A DNA stretch of 64,000 nt from Archangium violaceum (GTDB lineage: Bacteria > Myxococcota > Myxococcia > Myxococcales > Myxococcaceae), in NCBI RefSeq assembly GCF_016887565.1, contig NZ_CP069396.1, positions 11,638,001-11,702,000 on the forward strand, written 5' to 3'. The notes beneath the pieces are model-generated. The model saw nothing but the letters and a program-made list of their open reading frames with translations, had not been told where the DNA came from and made no database searches. Both the position numbers and the translations under genes were made by a program. Below, one piece after another: positions 29,615 to 35,528 of the stretch. Position 1 is the first letter of the stretch. Each line of letters begins with the position of its first letter.

Positions 29615-31057
29615 ATGCCCTCGAAGCTCCCCCTTCTCACCACATGTGCGTTGTTGGCCCTGCCCGCGGTGGCTCGCTCGGAGTCCAATCCACGCGCCAT
29701 CAGCCTTCGCATCCAGTGCCCACTGAAGGACGACATCCAACAGCAGAGAGCAGCCAGGCAGGCGACGCAGGATTGCAGGCTCCTCTCGGGCTGGTTCGAG
29801 GGCCGTCTCGACTGGCGCAGCGGCGGCACGGCCGGTGAAGAGGACTCGGGCACGCTCCTGTTCTCGGAGTTCGGCCGCTTCTACGCCACCCACGGCCTCG
29901 ACGGCGAAATCATCGTCTACGCCGATGGCAACAACCACTCGGAGGACTTCGAGCAGCGCTACCTCACGCCGGGAGAGCACAACGTCCTGACGGCGCCGGA
30001 CCTGCGCGTGGTGCTCTACCTGCGCAAGCGCGACGACTACGTGAAGCTCACGGACCAGCGATTCATGCCCGTGGCCAGCGCGGCCTGGGCGCGGTACGCG
30101 GAGAAGGCGCTCGGGTTCACGGGTGAGCTGACCGGTGACGTGGTCGGTCCCCAGGGCTCCACCAAGGTGGTGGCCATCCAGAGCGTCCGGGTCTCCAGCA
30201 CCCTGCCCACGACCGGGCAGGAGCTCCGCTTCGACGGGAGCCAGTGGGAGCCCACCACGACCTCGCCCCTGACGGCGGGAGCCGGACTCCAGGGCGGCCC
30301 TTATGACGGCCAGAGCCCGGCCACCTTCTCGGTGGTGTTCGGAACGGGCCCGGGCACGGTGACGGAGGGCTCGGACACACGGCTCCCTCCCGCACCGGGC
30401 GCGGCGGGACAGCTCCTCTACTCCAATGGCTCGAAGTGGAACGCGCTCGCCCCGGGCGCTCCGGCGCAAGTGCTGCACGGTGGCACCACGCCTTCCTGGG
30501 GCCCGGTGTCCCTGGACAAAGACGTGAGCGGAGTGCTGCCGCCCGCGCGCGGCGGCACCGGCCTGGCCTCTCCGGGCGCGGCGGGCAACGTGCTGCGCAG
30601 CACCGGGAGCGGGTGGGCGAGCAGCCCGCTCACCGGCGGGGACGTCCCGGGCGGCAGCGGCAACTACATCCAGAACCAGGCCTCCACGCAGCAGAACGCC
30701 CGGATGTGGATCAGCGGGCTGGCCAGCGTGGGCTCCCTCCGGGTGGGCGGTGGCACCCTGCTCCAGCGCGTGCAGATGGGCTCCCTCGTGCTCAACCCGC
30801 CCGGCCGGTGCGACGGCTTCCCCATCATCCAGTGCAACTACACCTGGTCGCTCGCGTTCCCGAGCGCGTTCTCCTCGCCGCCGACGGTCATCGTCACGCC
30901 GCGCAGCGGCTGCTGGAACTGCACCGACACGTTCAACGTCACGACCCGCAACGTGACGGAGACGGGCTTCGACCTCGTAGTGACGCGGACCGACCCGCAC
31001 CACCTGGGCGCGGACTGGGGGCAGTACCTGCAGATCGACTTCCTGGCCGGTAACTGA
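29615..31057 (+). CDS. Secreted tail-fibre-like protein with H-type-lectin-like end
   Basis: The 480-residue protein has a signal peptide (about 1-23; ALLALPAVARS). Residues 25-170 form an unrecognised N-terminal domain. Residues about 190-370 are Gly/Ser/Pro-rich tail-fibre-type repeats (VVFGTGPGTVTEGSDTRLP, PPARGGTGLASPG). The C-terminal ~90 residues match the H-type lectin pattern (FSSPPTVIVTP, TRNVTETGFDLVVTR, a final aromatic strand WGQYLQIDFLAG). Such proteins form trimeric fibres or bind glycans; surface or extracellular location is expected. GGAGGTAGAG lies 5-14 bases before ATG 29615. The small 31073 gene follows 15 bases after its stop and is likely in the same operon. Confidence 0.72.
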   Translation: MPSKLPLLTTCALLALPAVARSESNPRAISLRIQCPLKDDIQQQRAARQATQDCRLLSGWFEGRLDWRSGGTAGEEDSGTLLFSEFGRFYATHGLDGEIIVYADGNNHSEDFEQRYLTPGEHNVLTAPDLRVVLYLRKRDDYVKLTDQRFMPVASAAWARYAEKALGFTGELTGDVVGPQGSTKVVAIQSVRVSSTLPTTGQELRFDGSQWEPTTTSPLTAGAGLQGGPYDGQSPATFSVVFGTGPGTVTEGSDTRLPPAPGAAGQLLYSNGSKWNALAPGAPAQVLHGGTTPSWGPVSLDKDVSGVLPPARGGTGLASPGAAGNVLRSTGSGWASSPLTGGDVPGGSGNYIQNQASTQQNARMWISGLASVGSLRVGGGTLLQRVQMGSLVLNPPGRCDGFPIIQCNYTWSLAFPSAFSSPPTVIVTPRSGCWNCTDTFNVTTRNVTETGFDLVVTRTDPHHLGADWGQYLQIDFLAGN

Positions 31058-31651: not shown

Positions 31652-32152
31652 CTACTTCTCACACGGCACGGCGGAGCACTCACCCCACATTCCGCGCCCG
31701 GCCCGCCGGGCCGAGGACTCCAGGGATTGGAACTCCGAGCGCCGCGACTCGCCCGCCGGAGCGATGTAGAGGACACAGGCATAGCCCTGTTCGGCGAGCA
31801 GTGCGTTCACCTCGTGCCCATCCACGCTCACGTACGCGAGCAGCCGCCCGTAGCGGTCCGTACACGCCTCTCCGTACCGCAACCGCACGACGCGCCCCTC
31901 GACGAGCGAGCGGTTGAAGTCACGGGACTCGGCGCCGAAACACTCGTGCTTGCCGCCCGTGCTCTCCGGAGTGTCCACGAGCAGGTAGCGCACGCGCTCG
32001 CCGCTCTGGAGCACCACGGTGTCACCGTCCACGACCCTCGACACCACGCCAGCGCTCGGGCCACAGGCGGACTCCGAGCCGCACGCGCACAGGACGATGA
32101 GCACGCACCCGAGCACCACCACGAGCACCCGCCAGCCGTTCACGGCGCGCAT
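31652..32152 (-). CDS. Thermonuclease-family (SNase) lipoprotein
   Basis: The 166-residue protein has a lipoprotein signal (LIVLCACG, lipobox Cys about 24) and a staphylococcal-nuclease-type OB-fold domain. Characteristic features are the Ca-binding VDGDTVVL near 42, LLVDTPES near 58, a catalytic-Arg-bearing RDFNRSLVEGR near 80, and the C-terminal WGEC. SNase proteins hydrolyse DNA and RNA at Ca-dependent sites; a surface or periplasmic enzyme is expected here. Its start overlaps the 3' end of the lamin-tail gene by 13 bases, so it is the third gene of the 33384-35528 operon. Confidence 0.88.
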   Translation of the reverse strand: MRAVNGWRVLVVVLGCVLIVLCACGSESACGPSAGVVSRVVDGDTVVLQSGERVRYLLVDTPESTGGKHECFGAESRDFNRSLVEGRVVRLRYGEACTDRYGRLLAYVSVDGHEVNALLAEQGYACVLYIAPAGESRRSEFQSLESSARRAGRGMWGECSAVPCEK

Positions 32153-33369
32153 GGACGATTCTCCGCACCGGGAGTGCCCCGATCCACCGCGTTGTAGAGA
32201 ACGCCCTCCGGTGTCGAGCAGAAGCTCCCCGCCACATCGTTGCGCAGGGCGTCCTTCCGCGCGGGGTCGAGCTGCCTGGACACACCAGGGAGCGCGGCGC
32301 CCGTCCAGGTCACTTCATCGAGCAGCCCTCCATTCAGGGACAAGCGCAGCGCATGTGTTCCCGCGCTGTTGCTCAAGCCGAAGGAGAAGGTCGCCAACAC
32401 GGGCCGCACCCCACCGTTGGTCGAGGGCTCCCTGCTCCGCGCGAGCACCACGGGAGTCCCTCCCCTCACCTCCAGGCACTGCTTGTCATTGAGCGGGGTC
32501 CCCCCACCGCTCTCGTCCGAGAGCAGCACGCCATTGAGGTCCACATCGCGCAGGGCATGCACCTCCACCCACTCGCCCTGAGCATCCGCCACGGCCTTCG
32601 GATCGGCCATGACCTCGGTGATGACCAGGTCACCGGGGCCGGGGCGCGACACGCTCCGGAGTAGGCTCGTCCCTGGTGACTGACACGTGTCCCCGGGCAC
32701 ACCGGCATCCGCGATCACCCCCGCATCGGCAGACACACCCCCATCCGCGCCTCCGAGCGGATTCGCACAGGGAGGGTTCGCGGTCCCAGGGCTCGCCCGT
32801 GGGCCACTGCCCGTGCCGGGCGCGGGCGCATCACACCAGTGGCTCGTGTCGTCGTTGTCGAGCGCATCCGGCACGAGCCTCCCGTCGTAGATGCGTGCCA
32901 CGCCCGAGCGGATCGGCCCGGCGTATCGCACCTCGTCCACGACGACGTCCCCACAGCGCAGGCCGATGAGTCCACCCGTGTTGCCCAGGGAGCCGAGCGT
33001 GTCGCCATACGAGTGGTTCACATGAACCGGCAACTGCTCGACACGCACGTCCCCGAGCACCCCATAGCCCCTCGCCTCCACCAGCATGGACTCCTCGAAG
33101 AGGTACGCCCGCTCCTGCGAGCCATCCACGCGCGCCGCGTAGAGCAGCAGCCCCTTCAGGTCCACCGCCGAGCTTCCCGGGTTGTGGAGCTCCATCCACT
33201 CCTGCCCGGTGTCCGCACCCGCGGGGTCCGGCAGCAACTCGGTGATGACGACATCTCCGGGCCTCCATCCCTCGCAGTCGGGCTCCACTTCATCGAAAGA
33301 CAAACCACAGGCGCTGCCCACGAGCGCCAGGGCCAGGACGACACCAGACAAGACAACGTGTTTCTCCAT
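32140..33369 (-). CDS. Lipoprotein with two lamin-tail domains
   Basis: The 409-residue protein has a lipoprotein signal (ALALVGSAC, Cys about 21) and two lamin-tail (LTD) domains. The first (about 35-180) begins GDVVITELLPDPAG and has EWMELHNPGS; the second (about 235-395) begins GDLVITEVMADPKA and has EWVEVHALRD. Cys pairs near the domain ends suit an extracytoplasmic protein. Bacterial LTDs occur in secreted nucleases and phosphatases and in surface proteins, and probably bind ligands or proteins. It lies 14 bases after the beta-barrel gene and overlaps the SNase gene by 13 bases. The protein has no catalytic motif of its own; an adaptor role for the nuclease is inference. Confidence 0.85.
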   Translation of the reverse strand: MEKHVVLSGVVLALALVGSACGLSFDEVEPDCEGWRPGDVVITELLPDPAGADTGQEWMELHNPGSSAVDLKGLLLYAARVDGSQERAYLFEESMLVEARGYGVLGDVRVEQLPVHVNHSYGDTLGSLGNTGGLIGLRCGDVVVDEVRYAGPIRSGVARIYDGRLVPDALDNDDTSHWCDAPAPGTGSGPRASPGTANPPCANPLGGADGGVSADAGVIADAGVPGDTCQSPGTSLLRSVSRPGPGDLVITEVMADPKAVADAQGEWVEVHALRDVDLNGVLLSDESGGGTPLNDKQCLEVRGGTPVVLARSREPSTNGGVRPVLATFSFGLSNSAGTHALRLSLNGGLLDEVTWTGAALPGVSRQLDPARKDALRNDVAGSFCSTPEGVLYNAVDRGTPGAENRPCAP

Positions 33370-33383
33370 GGTCGACTCCAGAC

Positions 33384-35528
33384 TCAGAAACGGCTCTCCA
33401 ACTCCAGACGGAAGAGGTGCTGTGGCGGCTCGGGGGGCGTGAGCGAGCCCACCGGGGACTTCAGGTCCAGACCGAGCTCGTAGCGCCCACGCGCGCTCCA
33501 CCCGGGCAGGACCGCCCAGGCCACCTCCAGCGAGGTGCGCAGCGCCTGCGTCAGCCGGGTGTTCTCGGACAGGTCCTCGTCCTGCCAGCTCGCGCGCCCG
33601 TGCAGGCGCAGGGCCGGCAGCGGCCGGAAGAGGGCCTCCAGCACGGCACGCCCATCCTTCCGGAAGCCCCTGGGCTGACGGCGACTGCCCACCAGCGTGT
33701 GCTGGTACTGCACGGCGAGCGTCAGCGCCTCGGAGGCCTCGAGCCGCACCCGGCCCGCGACGCGGTATTGCTCGCCCGCGCACGCAATCGGCTCTCCGGT
33801 GGACAGCGTTCCGTCATTGCCCTCGAAGCACAGCTCCGGCCCGTTGCGCCCGAGGTCCTTGTTGCGATGCTCCACCCACACCGAGGGCTGGAGCTCCGAC
33901 ACGCCCACGAAGTCCACCCGGGCGGAGGTGCGCAGGTGGAAGACGCCGGGCGCCTCGCCACCGGGAGGCTGCGTCCACACGTCCACCCGTCCCGAGAGCC
34001 GCCACGCGCCCTCCACCGTGCGGTGCAGGTAGCGCAGCCGGGCGCCCAACTCGTTGCTCGCGCGCAGGCCCTCGGACTCGTCGGGGCTGGAGACGGCGCG
34101 GCTGTAGGGGTTGTCGAAGTCCCGTCCGTAGTAGCGCAGCGTCAGCTCCCACTCCTGGCTCGGGTCTCCGAGCACGGTGCGCTGGACGGCGCCGAAGCCT
34201 CCGCGCGGCTGTCCGGAAAGGCCCGCGAAGCTCCGCGCGCCCTCGAAGAAGAGGTCCACCGGCCCCAGGCCCCACGCGGCATCCGCGCCCACCGCGCCAT
34301 AACCTCCGCCCATGGGGTAGCGAGCGCTCTCCCGGAACTCGAGCGCCACGCCCTCCACCACCCACACCGGCCAGGCCCCCCAGGCCGTCACGCCCACCCG
34401 CGTGCGTGGAGAGGCGCCCAGGGAGACATGGCCGCCCCCGGCCACCTCGTGGAACACGTCCGGCAGGGTGCGCGAGACGAAGTGCGCGGGCCCCGGCACC
34501 TGCTTGCCGGGGAGCACGGCGAGCACCTCCGGCGCCCGGCACCCGTCCGTCCGCGAGCCCTGGCAGTCCTTCCGGTCGAACAGCTCGTACTGGGAGAGGT
34601 CGCGCGACTGGTGCGAGCCGAAGCCGGTGAGGGACAGCTCCAGTCCTTCCACCTGCCCGTGGACCGTGCCCACCACCCCGCGAAAGCCCTCCGTCCACCC
34701 GAAGTCCGGGGTGACGCGGCCCTGGGCATCCTCACCCACGCAGGCCCCCGTGCCCGACAGCACACAGCGCTTCTCGGGAGTGCCGGGCATGAGGAAGCCC
34801 TCATCGGCAACGAAGCCCTCCGGCGCCGGGCGGCCCGTGGTGTCGAGGGTGAGCCGCTGTCCGAAGCCCAGCCGGTACGTGCCCACCAGCACCGAGGCAT
34901 GCGCGCCCTCCCATCGCACGTGAAACTTCGGCGCTCGGGGCGTCACGCTGGGGAGCTCGGCCACCAGCACGCGGCGCCGGGAGTCCTGGCGCACGGGGCC
35001 CAGGCGGCGCCTGGAGAGGGAGACGCCGCCTCCGCCTCGCAGGCCCAGGGGCCCGTCGACCTGGGCCTGGAGGAGCATCGGGGGCACCAGCGCATCCGCC
35101 GCGGCGTACGCCGTCAGCAGTCGCAGCCGCCCGGAGACGTCCCACTCCCCGCGCTCCTCTTCCACCAGGAAGGGCCGCAGCCGGCGGAGCTCCGCCGCGG
35201 AGAGCACCCCGGCCTCCACCAGCGCCCCCGGCGCGAAGGTGCCCTCCACCCGCGCCCGGTACGCGAGGAGCGCATCCACCTGCGCCCAGGTGAGGCCCGG
35301 CAGCGCGTACAGCGCCTCGCGCGTGGCCGTGCGGAGGTCCACCCCCGTGCGCAGCAGCTCCAGCAGCGTGTCGAAGCCCTCCCGCGAGAGCACCCCGTCC
35401 TCGAACAGCGCGCGCAGGTCCGTCTCGTCGTCGATGGAGAGCTCGACCTCGTACGGCTCGGCGCGCGCGCCCGGCGCGGCGAGGAGGGTCCACACAATCA
35501 GCAGGGCAGGCAGGCAGGCGTGTCGCAC
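33384..35528 (-). CDS. Outer-membrane beta-barrel protein with N-terminal HhH region
   Basis: The 714-residue protein has a signal peptide (about 1-23; LLIVWTLLAAPGARA). It then carries a ComEA-like helix-hairpin-helix region (about 25-110; YALPGLTWAQVDALLAYRARV). From about 130 to 714 it is alternating polar/hydrophobic beta sequence ending in LELESRF, whose terminal Phe suits BamA recognition. It is the first gene of a compact operon with the LTD lipoprotein and SNase lipoprotein. DNA contact at the outer membrane is inferred from the HhH region and the neighbours. The start is uncertain: GTG 35528 opens the signal peptide; GTG 35567 would add 13 residues. It is divergent from the esterase gene. 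Confidence 0.72.
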   Translation of the reverse strand: MRHACLPALLIVWTLLAAPGARAEPYEVELSIDDETDLRALFEDGVLSREGFDTLLELLRTGVDLRTATREALYALPGLTWAQVDALLAYRARVEGTFAPGALVEAGVLSAAELRRLRPFLVEEERGEWDVSGRLRLLTAYAAADALVPPMLLQAQVDGPLGLRGGGGVSLSRRRLGPVRQDSRRRVLVAELPSVTPRAPKFHVRWEGAHASVLVGTYRLGFGQRLTLDTTGRPAPEGFVADEGFLMPGTPEKRCVLSGTGACVGEDAQGRVTPDFGWTEGFRGVVGTVHGQVEGLELSLTGFGSHQSRDLSQYELFDRKDCQGSRTDGCRAPEVLAVLPGKQVPGPAHFVSRTLPDVFHEVAGGGHVSLGASPRTRVGVTAWGAWPVWVVEGVALEFRESARYPMGGGYGAVGADAAWGLGPVDLFFEGARSFAGLSGQPRGGFGAVQRTVLGDPSQEWELTLRYYGRDFDNPYSRAVSSPDESEGLRASNELGARLRYLHRTVEGAWRLSGRVDVWTQPPGGEAPGVFHLRTSARVDFVGVSELQPSVWVEHRNKDLGRNGPELCFEGNDGTLSTGEPIACAGEQYRVAGRVRLEASEALTLAVQYQHTLVGSRRQPRGFRKDGRAVLEALFRPLPALRLHGRASWQDEDLSENTRLTQALRTSLEVAWAVLPGWSARGRYELGLDLKSPVGSLTPPEPPQHLFRLELESRF

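Follow-up and report, generated by a model that had tools for sequence, protein, structure and literature searches.

What might a predicted outer-membrane barrel, a lipoprotein with lamin-tail domains (LTD) and a thermonuclease (SNase) lipoprotein accomplish together, encoded as they are by adjoining genes? The question is raised by a trio in Archangium violaceum, which we analysed within a stretch of 64,000 nucleotides (RefSeq assembly GCF_016887565.1, contig NZ_CP069396.1, positions 11,638,001 to 11,702,000), called the window throughout. An original prediction, made from the sequence of the window, took the trio for a surface machine that binds, cuts or takes up extracellular DNA. Across Myxococcota the set proved to be largely present or missing together, and we propose, with somewhat less than even confidence, that this cassette makes an outer-membrane nucleic-acid-processing complex with an LTD-barrel core; its function is probably nutritional. 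By computation, the cassette couples a multi-LTD lipoprotein with a predicted 24-strand barrel, whose predicted periplasmic domain has a helix-hairpin-helix (HhH) fold, and usually with one or two putative SNase lipoproteins. How nucleic acids or their fragments pass the outer membrane in Gram-negative bacteria without competence pili is largely open.

Co-occurrence and arrangement of the cassette

In a panel of 195 Myxococcota genomes, barrel relatives were found in 104 and SNase relatives also in 104: 95 genomes have both, 82 have neither, and each of the two occurs without the other in 9 (Fisher p 1.3e-33, a value that overstates independence given the kinship among the genomes). Within the window's family, an SNase is present in 77 of the 82 genomes with a barrel and in none of the 14 without one; since these 14 lack both, the cassette seems to be lost as a set. 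Genome G068 is an exception, with a strong LTD relative (E 3.4e-56) and neither barrel nor SNase. Matches to the LTD protein at E ≤ 0.001 occur in 124 of the 195 genomes, the weak ones possibly being other LTD proteins. A barrel without a match at E ≤ 0.001 to SN1, the type of SNase lipoprotein seen in the window, was observed in G007, G133, G143-G145, G147, G164, G188 and G191; the barrel of G133 lies at a contig edge, and G007 still has the second type, SN2.

SN2 is an SNase lipoprotein of about 400 residues, found as a family (F3) shared by 18 loci when 40 stretches and the window were compared. Two of its members exceed the SNase cut-off (46.4 and 37.1 bits), one of them with a weak match of OB type (tRNA_anti-like) in its tail. 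SN2 matches were found in 39 of the 195 genomes; at E<1e-60 they occur in 37 of the 104 barrel genomes and in 0 of the 91 without a barrel. A genome search did not find SN2 in the window genome, where SN1 is the sole SNase match, and, judged by the spread of SN2, its absence from the window's version of the cassette (barrel-LTD-SN1) looks like a loss.

To see how the genes are arranged, we compared the best 80 of 131 barrel loci, which a search with a single conserved peptide pattern and a remote query (the barrel of locus L054) had recovered; many of the 80 come from the same species as genomes of the panel. Adjoining the barrel are an LTD gene in 67 loci, SN1 in 50, SN2 in 51, any SNase in 63, and LTD together with an SNase in 61. 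Among the 37 loci with at least 7 kb on both sides, these numbers are 35 for LTD, 33 for any SNase and 33 for both. The commonest orders are LTD-SN2-LTD-SN1-barrel (22 loci), barrel-SN2-LTD-SN1 (12), SN2-LTD-barrel (10) and LTD-SN1-barrel (9), and a lone barrel was seen in 10 of the 80, mostly at contig ends. The set thus stays together despite its varied gene order, and its carriers include Nannocystis, Plesiocystis and Enhygromyxa. This pattern bears on the main rival explanation, namely that the barrel exports the lipoproteins encoded with it and that the nucleases are cargo. The SNases do vary, as expected of cargo; the near constancy of LTD (67 of 80), however, speaks for a structural partner more than for exchangeable cargo.

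Other features of these neighbourhoods were noted in passing. L141 has a split or flipped cassette: its LTD-SN2-LTD-SN1 cluster is about 3.6 kb away from the barrel and on the other strand. Upstream of the cassette in L050, L051 and L052 (the distant genomes G192, G194 and G189) are same-strand proteins of shared families: F13 and F14, which appear TPR-rich by eye, in all three loci, and F28 in two. Gene families common to several loci beyond F0-F3 look lineage-specific by eye, part of them being annotated. In Bacteroidota, too, HhH barrels may stand beside LTD proteins, a possibility given no weight here.

The window genome is 13.2 Mb in one contig and contains a single SNase match, that of SN1, and eight LTD-domain matches, two of them inside the cassette LTD gene. 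Since matches are this few and the arrangement recurs across the phylum, chance adjacency of the cassette genes is unlikely. The geometry originally predicted, three tightly spaced minus-strand genes for barrel, LTD protein and SNase protein, the first two 14 bases apart and the last two overlapping by 13, holds, and so does the expectation that the three families co-occur and cluster across Myxococcota. The genes flanking the cassette on both sides are on the opposite strand, and those scanned matched an esterase, DUF2378, an H-type lectin or nothing in Pfam; the lectin domain forms the C-terminus of a 480-residue protein at 29615-31057 (+).

Table 1. Features of the cassette in the window, in window coordinates.
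Feature	Position	Strand	Description and basis
Outer-membrane barrel protein	33384..35528	(-)	714 residues, start codon GTG at 35528; HhH domain and predicted 24-strand barrel; signal peptide judged by eye
HHH_3 / ComEA-like helix-hairpin-helix stretch	35166..35348	(-)	Barrel residues 61-121; Pfam HHH_3 on trimmed domain and family profile against PDB
24-strand beta-barrel (predicted)	33390..35135	(-)	Residues 132-713; strands assigned by DSSP in the AF2 model
Lipoprotein with two lamin-tail domains	32140..33369	(-)	409 residues; Pfam LTD, two stretches; lipoprotein signal by eye
LTD domain 1	32923..33261	(-)	Pfam LTD match in genome
LTD domain 2	32302..32640	(-)	Pfam LTD match in genome; alone 28.6 of 34.3 bits, below the curated cut-off
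SNase (thermonuclease) lipoprotein SN1	31652..32152	(-)	166 residues; Pfam SNase; alignment to S. aureus nuclease
SNase domain of SN1	31682..31996	(-)	Pfam SNase match in genome

The nuclease and lamin-tail lipoproteins

The lipoproteins of the window belong to the families originally named: Pfam gives SNase at 74.7 bits (cut-off 21) and LTD, in two stretches, at 60.8 bits (cut-off 34.3). When the cassette proteins were scanned against NCBIfam none reached a cut-off, the top model for SN1 being staphylococcal NucI (65.9 of 250 bits). Aligned to the S. aureus nuclease (best E 2.3e-16), the window SN1 keeps all five residues that we take to be catalytic (D21, R35, D40, E43 and R87 in S. aureus numbering). 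All five are kept in 64 of 72 SN1 rows: D21, R35, E43 and R87 are present in every row and D40 in 64, with Asn in place of the aligned Asp in the other 8. For SN2, D21, R35, D40 and E43 are found in 57 of the 57 rows covering the sites and R87 in 58 of 58, figures that are column counts only, as the alignment split SN2 proteins into two rows. Judged by these residues, the SNases look catalytically intact.

A link between LTD and secreted nucleases is known, from PMC4486849, from an LTD-Exo_endo_phos protein of the window genome and from the SNc+LTD model of PADLOC. That protein (L033, G000:C1:12669519-12669848) carries a nuclease domain beside its LTD, while a second LTD protein of the same genome (L038, 1631197-1631460) has a CotH kinase domain; from these two, LTD has both nuclease and non-nuclease partners there. 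Such partners matter for an explanation that we judge improbable, in which LTD and barrel would form a surface structural unit for adhesion or matrix remodelling, while the SNases would rid the matrix of extracellular DNA or RNA and no nucleic acid would be transported. As LTDs also occur in CotH and fn3 proteins of the window genome, an LTD need not mean nucleic acid; LTD-barrel pairs exist without an adjoining SNase; and the biofilm matrix of Myxococcus xanthus contains extracellular DNA (PMC9073016). A barrel of 24 strands, however, would exceed the needs of an anchor, and the barrel is present in all 37 of the 37 genomes with a strong SN2 match.

The barrel and its helix-hairpin-helix domain

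An AlphaFold 2 (AF2) model of the barrel protein (mean pLDDT 88.0, pTM 0.87) has a helical N-terminal domain followed by 24 strands of at least 8 residues (DSSP), a topology that agrees with the outer-membrane barrel first proposed. Loops of 8-60 residues follow the odd strands and loops of 2-5 residues the even ones; because of this alternation, both termini and the helical domain are predicted to lie on the periplasmic side. The top rows in VIA-align are the ushers FimD and PapC (Z 13.4-13.1; the best, at 13.4, covers 368 residues with a root-mean-square deviation of 4.9), with porins (13.0) and AlgE (12.6) just below. Foldseek rows comprise ushers, the Mtr barrel and TonB-dependent receptors, and a viral fold library returned general porin- and receptor-like barrels. 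For a predicted structure, such matches establish a large barrel and no function. A Pfam scan of the barrel at E ≤ 1 gave HHH_3 and T2SSK only, and no plug, usher or Slam family.

Two other origins were considered and rejected. A phage or defence origin finds no PHROGs match for barrel or LTD, and PADLOC matches the SNase alone. As for carriage on plasmids, the window barrel had no match and the L054 barrel four short ones, each 8-9% of its length; a Parabacteroides plasmid match to the latter is a 729-base HhH gene with no barrel. A wider spread in Gammaproteobacteria was not seen either. In the class of G195, one of three Gammaproteobacteria genomes with LTD and barrel, 211 of 274 genomes match the barrel query at E ≤ 0.001, but among the matches listed, G195's own alone spans the barrel and the others are to the HhH part.

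The N-terminal domain is an HhH by profile, as the original prediction of a ComEA-like segment supposed. HHH_3 scores 16.4 bits in the full-length window barrel and 21.3 bits (E 3e-4) in the trimmed domain, both against a cut-off of 27, and 52 bits in the orthologous barrel of L051. It was recovered at E ≤ 0.01 in every one of the 57 rows of our alignment, which had been pre-chosen by hairpin pattern and comprise the window and 56 of 63 HhH stretches, seven near relatives being left out. The hairpin pattern is missing in 4 of 120 sequences, among them L140 and L158, and these lie outside the alignment. Searched against PDB, the family profile found EEPD1 (9yi2, E 3e-16) and ComEA (8dss, E 7.3e-12). 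Modelled alone, the domain has a mean pLDDT of 89, and the first Foldseek row is ComEA, though at E 0.22 (prob 0.99), with no row at E ≤ 0.001. Finally, 7 of the 57 rows weakly match T2SSK, a secretion component, and the HhH may be a protein-binding or structural relative, like T2SSK.

These properties bring us back to export of the lipoproteins by the barrel, which we consider unlikely, while ranking it above the other alternatives. One to four lipoprotein genes accompany that of a barrel whose N-terminal domain is predicted to be periplasmic, ushers that secrete proteins head the fold rows, the HhH has lost its DNA-fitting shape and weakly resembles T2SSK in the rows just mentioned, and PMC9090332 reports an outer-membrane translocon, Slam1, that acts on a lipoprotein. 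Against export, neither the Slam nor the usher family appears in Pfam at E ≤ 1, and the likeness to ushers may reflect strand number alone, porins and AlgE scoring nearly as high.

Proposed function and known systems

Returning to the nucleic-acid-processing complex, we suggest the following mechanism. The LTD lipoprotein, as a constant partner, would be located at the barrel or next to it, the two making a core pair, and the SNase lipoproteins, tethered near the barrel, would cut DNA and RNA from lysed cells. The barrel would then pass oligonucleotides into the periplasm, where they could serve as a source of phosphorus, nitrogen or nucleotides. The HhH would have drifted away from its DNA-binding form and would act in the periplasm as an adaptor or gate, not as a grip on DNA. 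That LTD and barrel are the core and the SNases usual add-ons is suggested because the pair stands without an adjoining SNase in metagenome-assembled genomes (MAGs) of Gammaproteobacteria. In its most specific form, the proposal describes pilus-independent nucleic-acid import by a 24-strand barrel with no detectable plug and a degenerate ComEA-like periplasmic domain, an LTD cap and usually one or two SNases, turning DNA and RNA of prey or biofilm into periplasmic oligonucleotides. Such an import system would be spread through Myxococcota and would have an SNase-less form in three Gammaproteobacteria MAGs; taken jointly, we regard this as a tentative and rather doubtful possibility.

A number of observations weigh against the proposal, the first group concerning the handling of nucleic acid. 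The GxG hairpin is the DNA-contacting element of an HhH. In the first hairpin, the one counted, the second glycine is retained in 1 of the 116 sequences where it could be located (of 120, duplicate genomes included); the other 115 have T (81), S (15), D (12), N (3), L (2) or A (2), and the first glycine position has N in 67 and G in 38. The median net charge of the HhH is -13 over the 100-residue domain and -4 over the 56-residue core, only 9 of 101 distinct cores being positive, and that of the window is -9 over the domain and neutral (0) over the core. The median isoelectric point (pI) is 4.1 for LTD domains (383 matches; duplicates are included here and in the next two figures), with 4.4 for the mature window LTD protein, and 4.7 for SN1 (92 matches), with 5.5 for the window SN1; SN2, at 8.8 (71 matches), is the sole basic part among the three. 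By a crude count the barrel lumen has a charge of only +10 over 144 residues, which is mildly positive. Net charge was discarded as decisive evidence against DNA binding: in ComEA 8dss the stretch that matches is itself about -2 when counted by eye, and the window core is 0. The loss of the glycine argues better, and we consider it doubtful that HhH or LTD binds DNA directly. Thus, of the activities originally envisaged, nucleic-acid cutting is supported by catalytic residues that are nearly all kept, whereas the case for DNA binding by HhH and LTD is weakened.

The second group concerns the consistency of the cassette. A same-strand LTD is missing in 13 of the 80 loci; 11 of these have less than 7 kb on one side or more, which is not the case for L086 and L156. 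Three loci from Gammaproteobacteria MAGs (L082, L140 and L158) have four LTDs and a barrel with no adjoining SNase, and SNase matches are absent from two of these genomes and on another contig in the third, although MAGs may be incomplete. For the DNA-system reading as first put forward, then, the families, their clustering and the HhH profile speak in its favour, while these three contigs speak against it. In G192-G194, SN2 and the barrel are on different contigs. A lipobox-like motif was seen in just 33 of 51 SN1 and 27 of 50 SN2 proteins (12 of 80 barrels as a control); lipid anchoring of SN1 and SN2 is likely, though perhaps not for every member. In favour of the proposal, tree distances of barrel and SNase correlate (r 0.74 for SN1 over 51 loci and 0.82 for SN2 over 50, values reached by 0 of 2000 permutations), a correlation made without species-tree control. 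Finally, a literature search by title and start of abstract, covering few subscription journals, gave no paper on the cassette, and passages of a secreted-proteome paper (PMC11495043) contain neither 'lamin' nor 'thermonuclease'.

The state of the HhH also bears on a further alternative, pilus-independent DNA uptake for transformation, in which LTD would catch DNA, the SNases would nick it, the barrel would pass it and the HhH, in the manner of ComEA, would pull it inward. Of the solved relatives of the domain ComEA is among the closest, and it is also the first Foldseek row; for Riemerella, PMC8459023 describes a predicted barrel, a predicted surface protein and an HhH protein needed for transformation. 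Yet the first hairpin is without its second glycine, both HhH and LTD are acidic, and degrading nucleases would fit digestion better than the import of long DNA. The HhH is moreover cut down after the first hairpin in some genomes of the window's family (L062 and L070). We hold transformation to be quite improbable, and favour both it and the matrix explanation less than export.

What the cassette offers is a concrete, usually single-copy and deletable candidate in a predatory phylum with laboratory models. As a nucleic-acid-processing complex, it predicts surface nuclease activity, a constant LTD-barrel pair and a periplasmic adaptor. If the barrel exports its lipoproteins instead, it would be a translocon unlike the Slam and usher systems compared here.

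The cassette consists of known domains in a combination that we found under no name, and several systems share some of its parts. In PMC4486849, the DNase of Thioalkalivibrio and its kin pair an extracellular nuclease with LTD or a duplicate HhH, both of which the authors propose for DNA binding. The likeness lies in this pairing; there, the enzyme is of DNase I type and carries the domains within the same protein, whereas the cassette has separate proteins, an SNase-type nuclease and its HhH on a barrel. The PADLOC model C3a212 ('SNc+LTD') also links SNase and LTD, and the window SN1 matches it at 5.8e-16, over profile positions 46-179 of 279 only. By its description, C3a212 would be one protein with both domains, unlike the separate genes of the cassette, and the barrel and LTD proteins do not match it.

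ComEA, the periplasmic DNA receptor of transformation, belongs to the HHH_3 family and is related in sequence to the barrel HhH. In 8dss both hairpins read GIG, whereas the cassette has first hairpins of the NLT or GLT type, on a barrel. Transformation in Riemerella anatipestifer requires three proteins (RA0C_RS04915, RA0C_RS04920 and RA0C_RS02645) that, according to PMC8459023, are without relatives in the classical machinery: a barrel predicted for the outer membrane, a protein predicted at the surface, and an HhH protein; because they act outside it, other outer-membrane routes for DNA have been proposed. Compared by description, their parts list is similar to that of the cassette, with the difference that the HhH is a separate protein; PMC8459023 does not contain the word lamin.

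Slam1, as presented in PMC9090332, is an outer-membrane protein working with surface lipoproteins, a layout that the cassette may share. The cassette barrel differs in having an HhH as its N-terminal domain and no Slam family in Pfam at E ≤ 1; the absence of Slam from the fold lists excludes nothing. The usher barrels of FimD and PapC have 24 strands, and they gave the top fold rows for the cassette barrel. Identity to them is about 10%, and with no usher family in Pfam at E ≤ 1 the barrel does not class as an usher; a shared barrel size proves no shared function.

In capture-and-import systems of the SusCD type, an outer-membrane barrel works with a constant lipoprotein partner that caps it and with variable degrading enzymes; SusC, a TonB-dependent transporter, is a 22-strand barrel with a plug domain. 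The modelled barrel of the cassette has 24 strands instead, Pfam shows no plug family for it at E ≤ 1, and LTD takes the place of SusD. Pfam and the model thus do not place it among SusC and TonB-dependent transporters, which lowers the case for membership and leaves the likeness: a constant lipoprotein partner, LTD adjoining most barrels, together with variable degrading enzymes. As a whole, the cassette would be a nucleic-acid counterpart of a polysaccharide-type locus that captures, cuts and imports.

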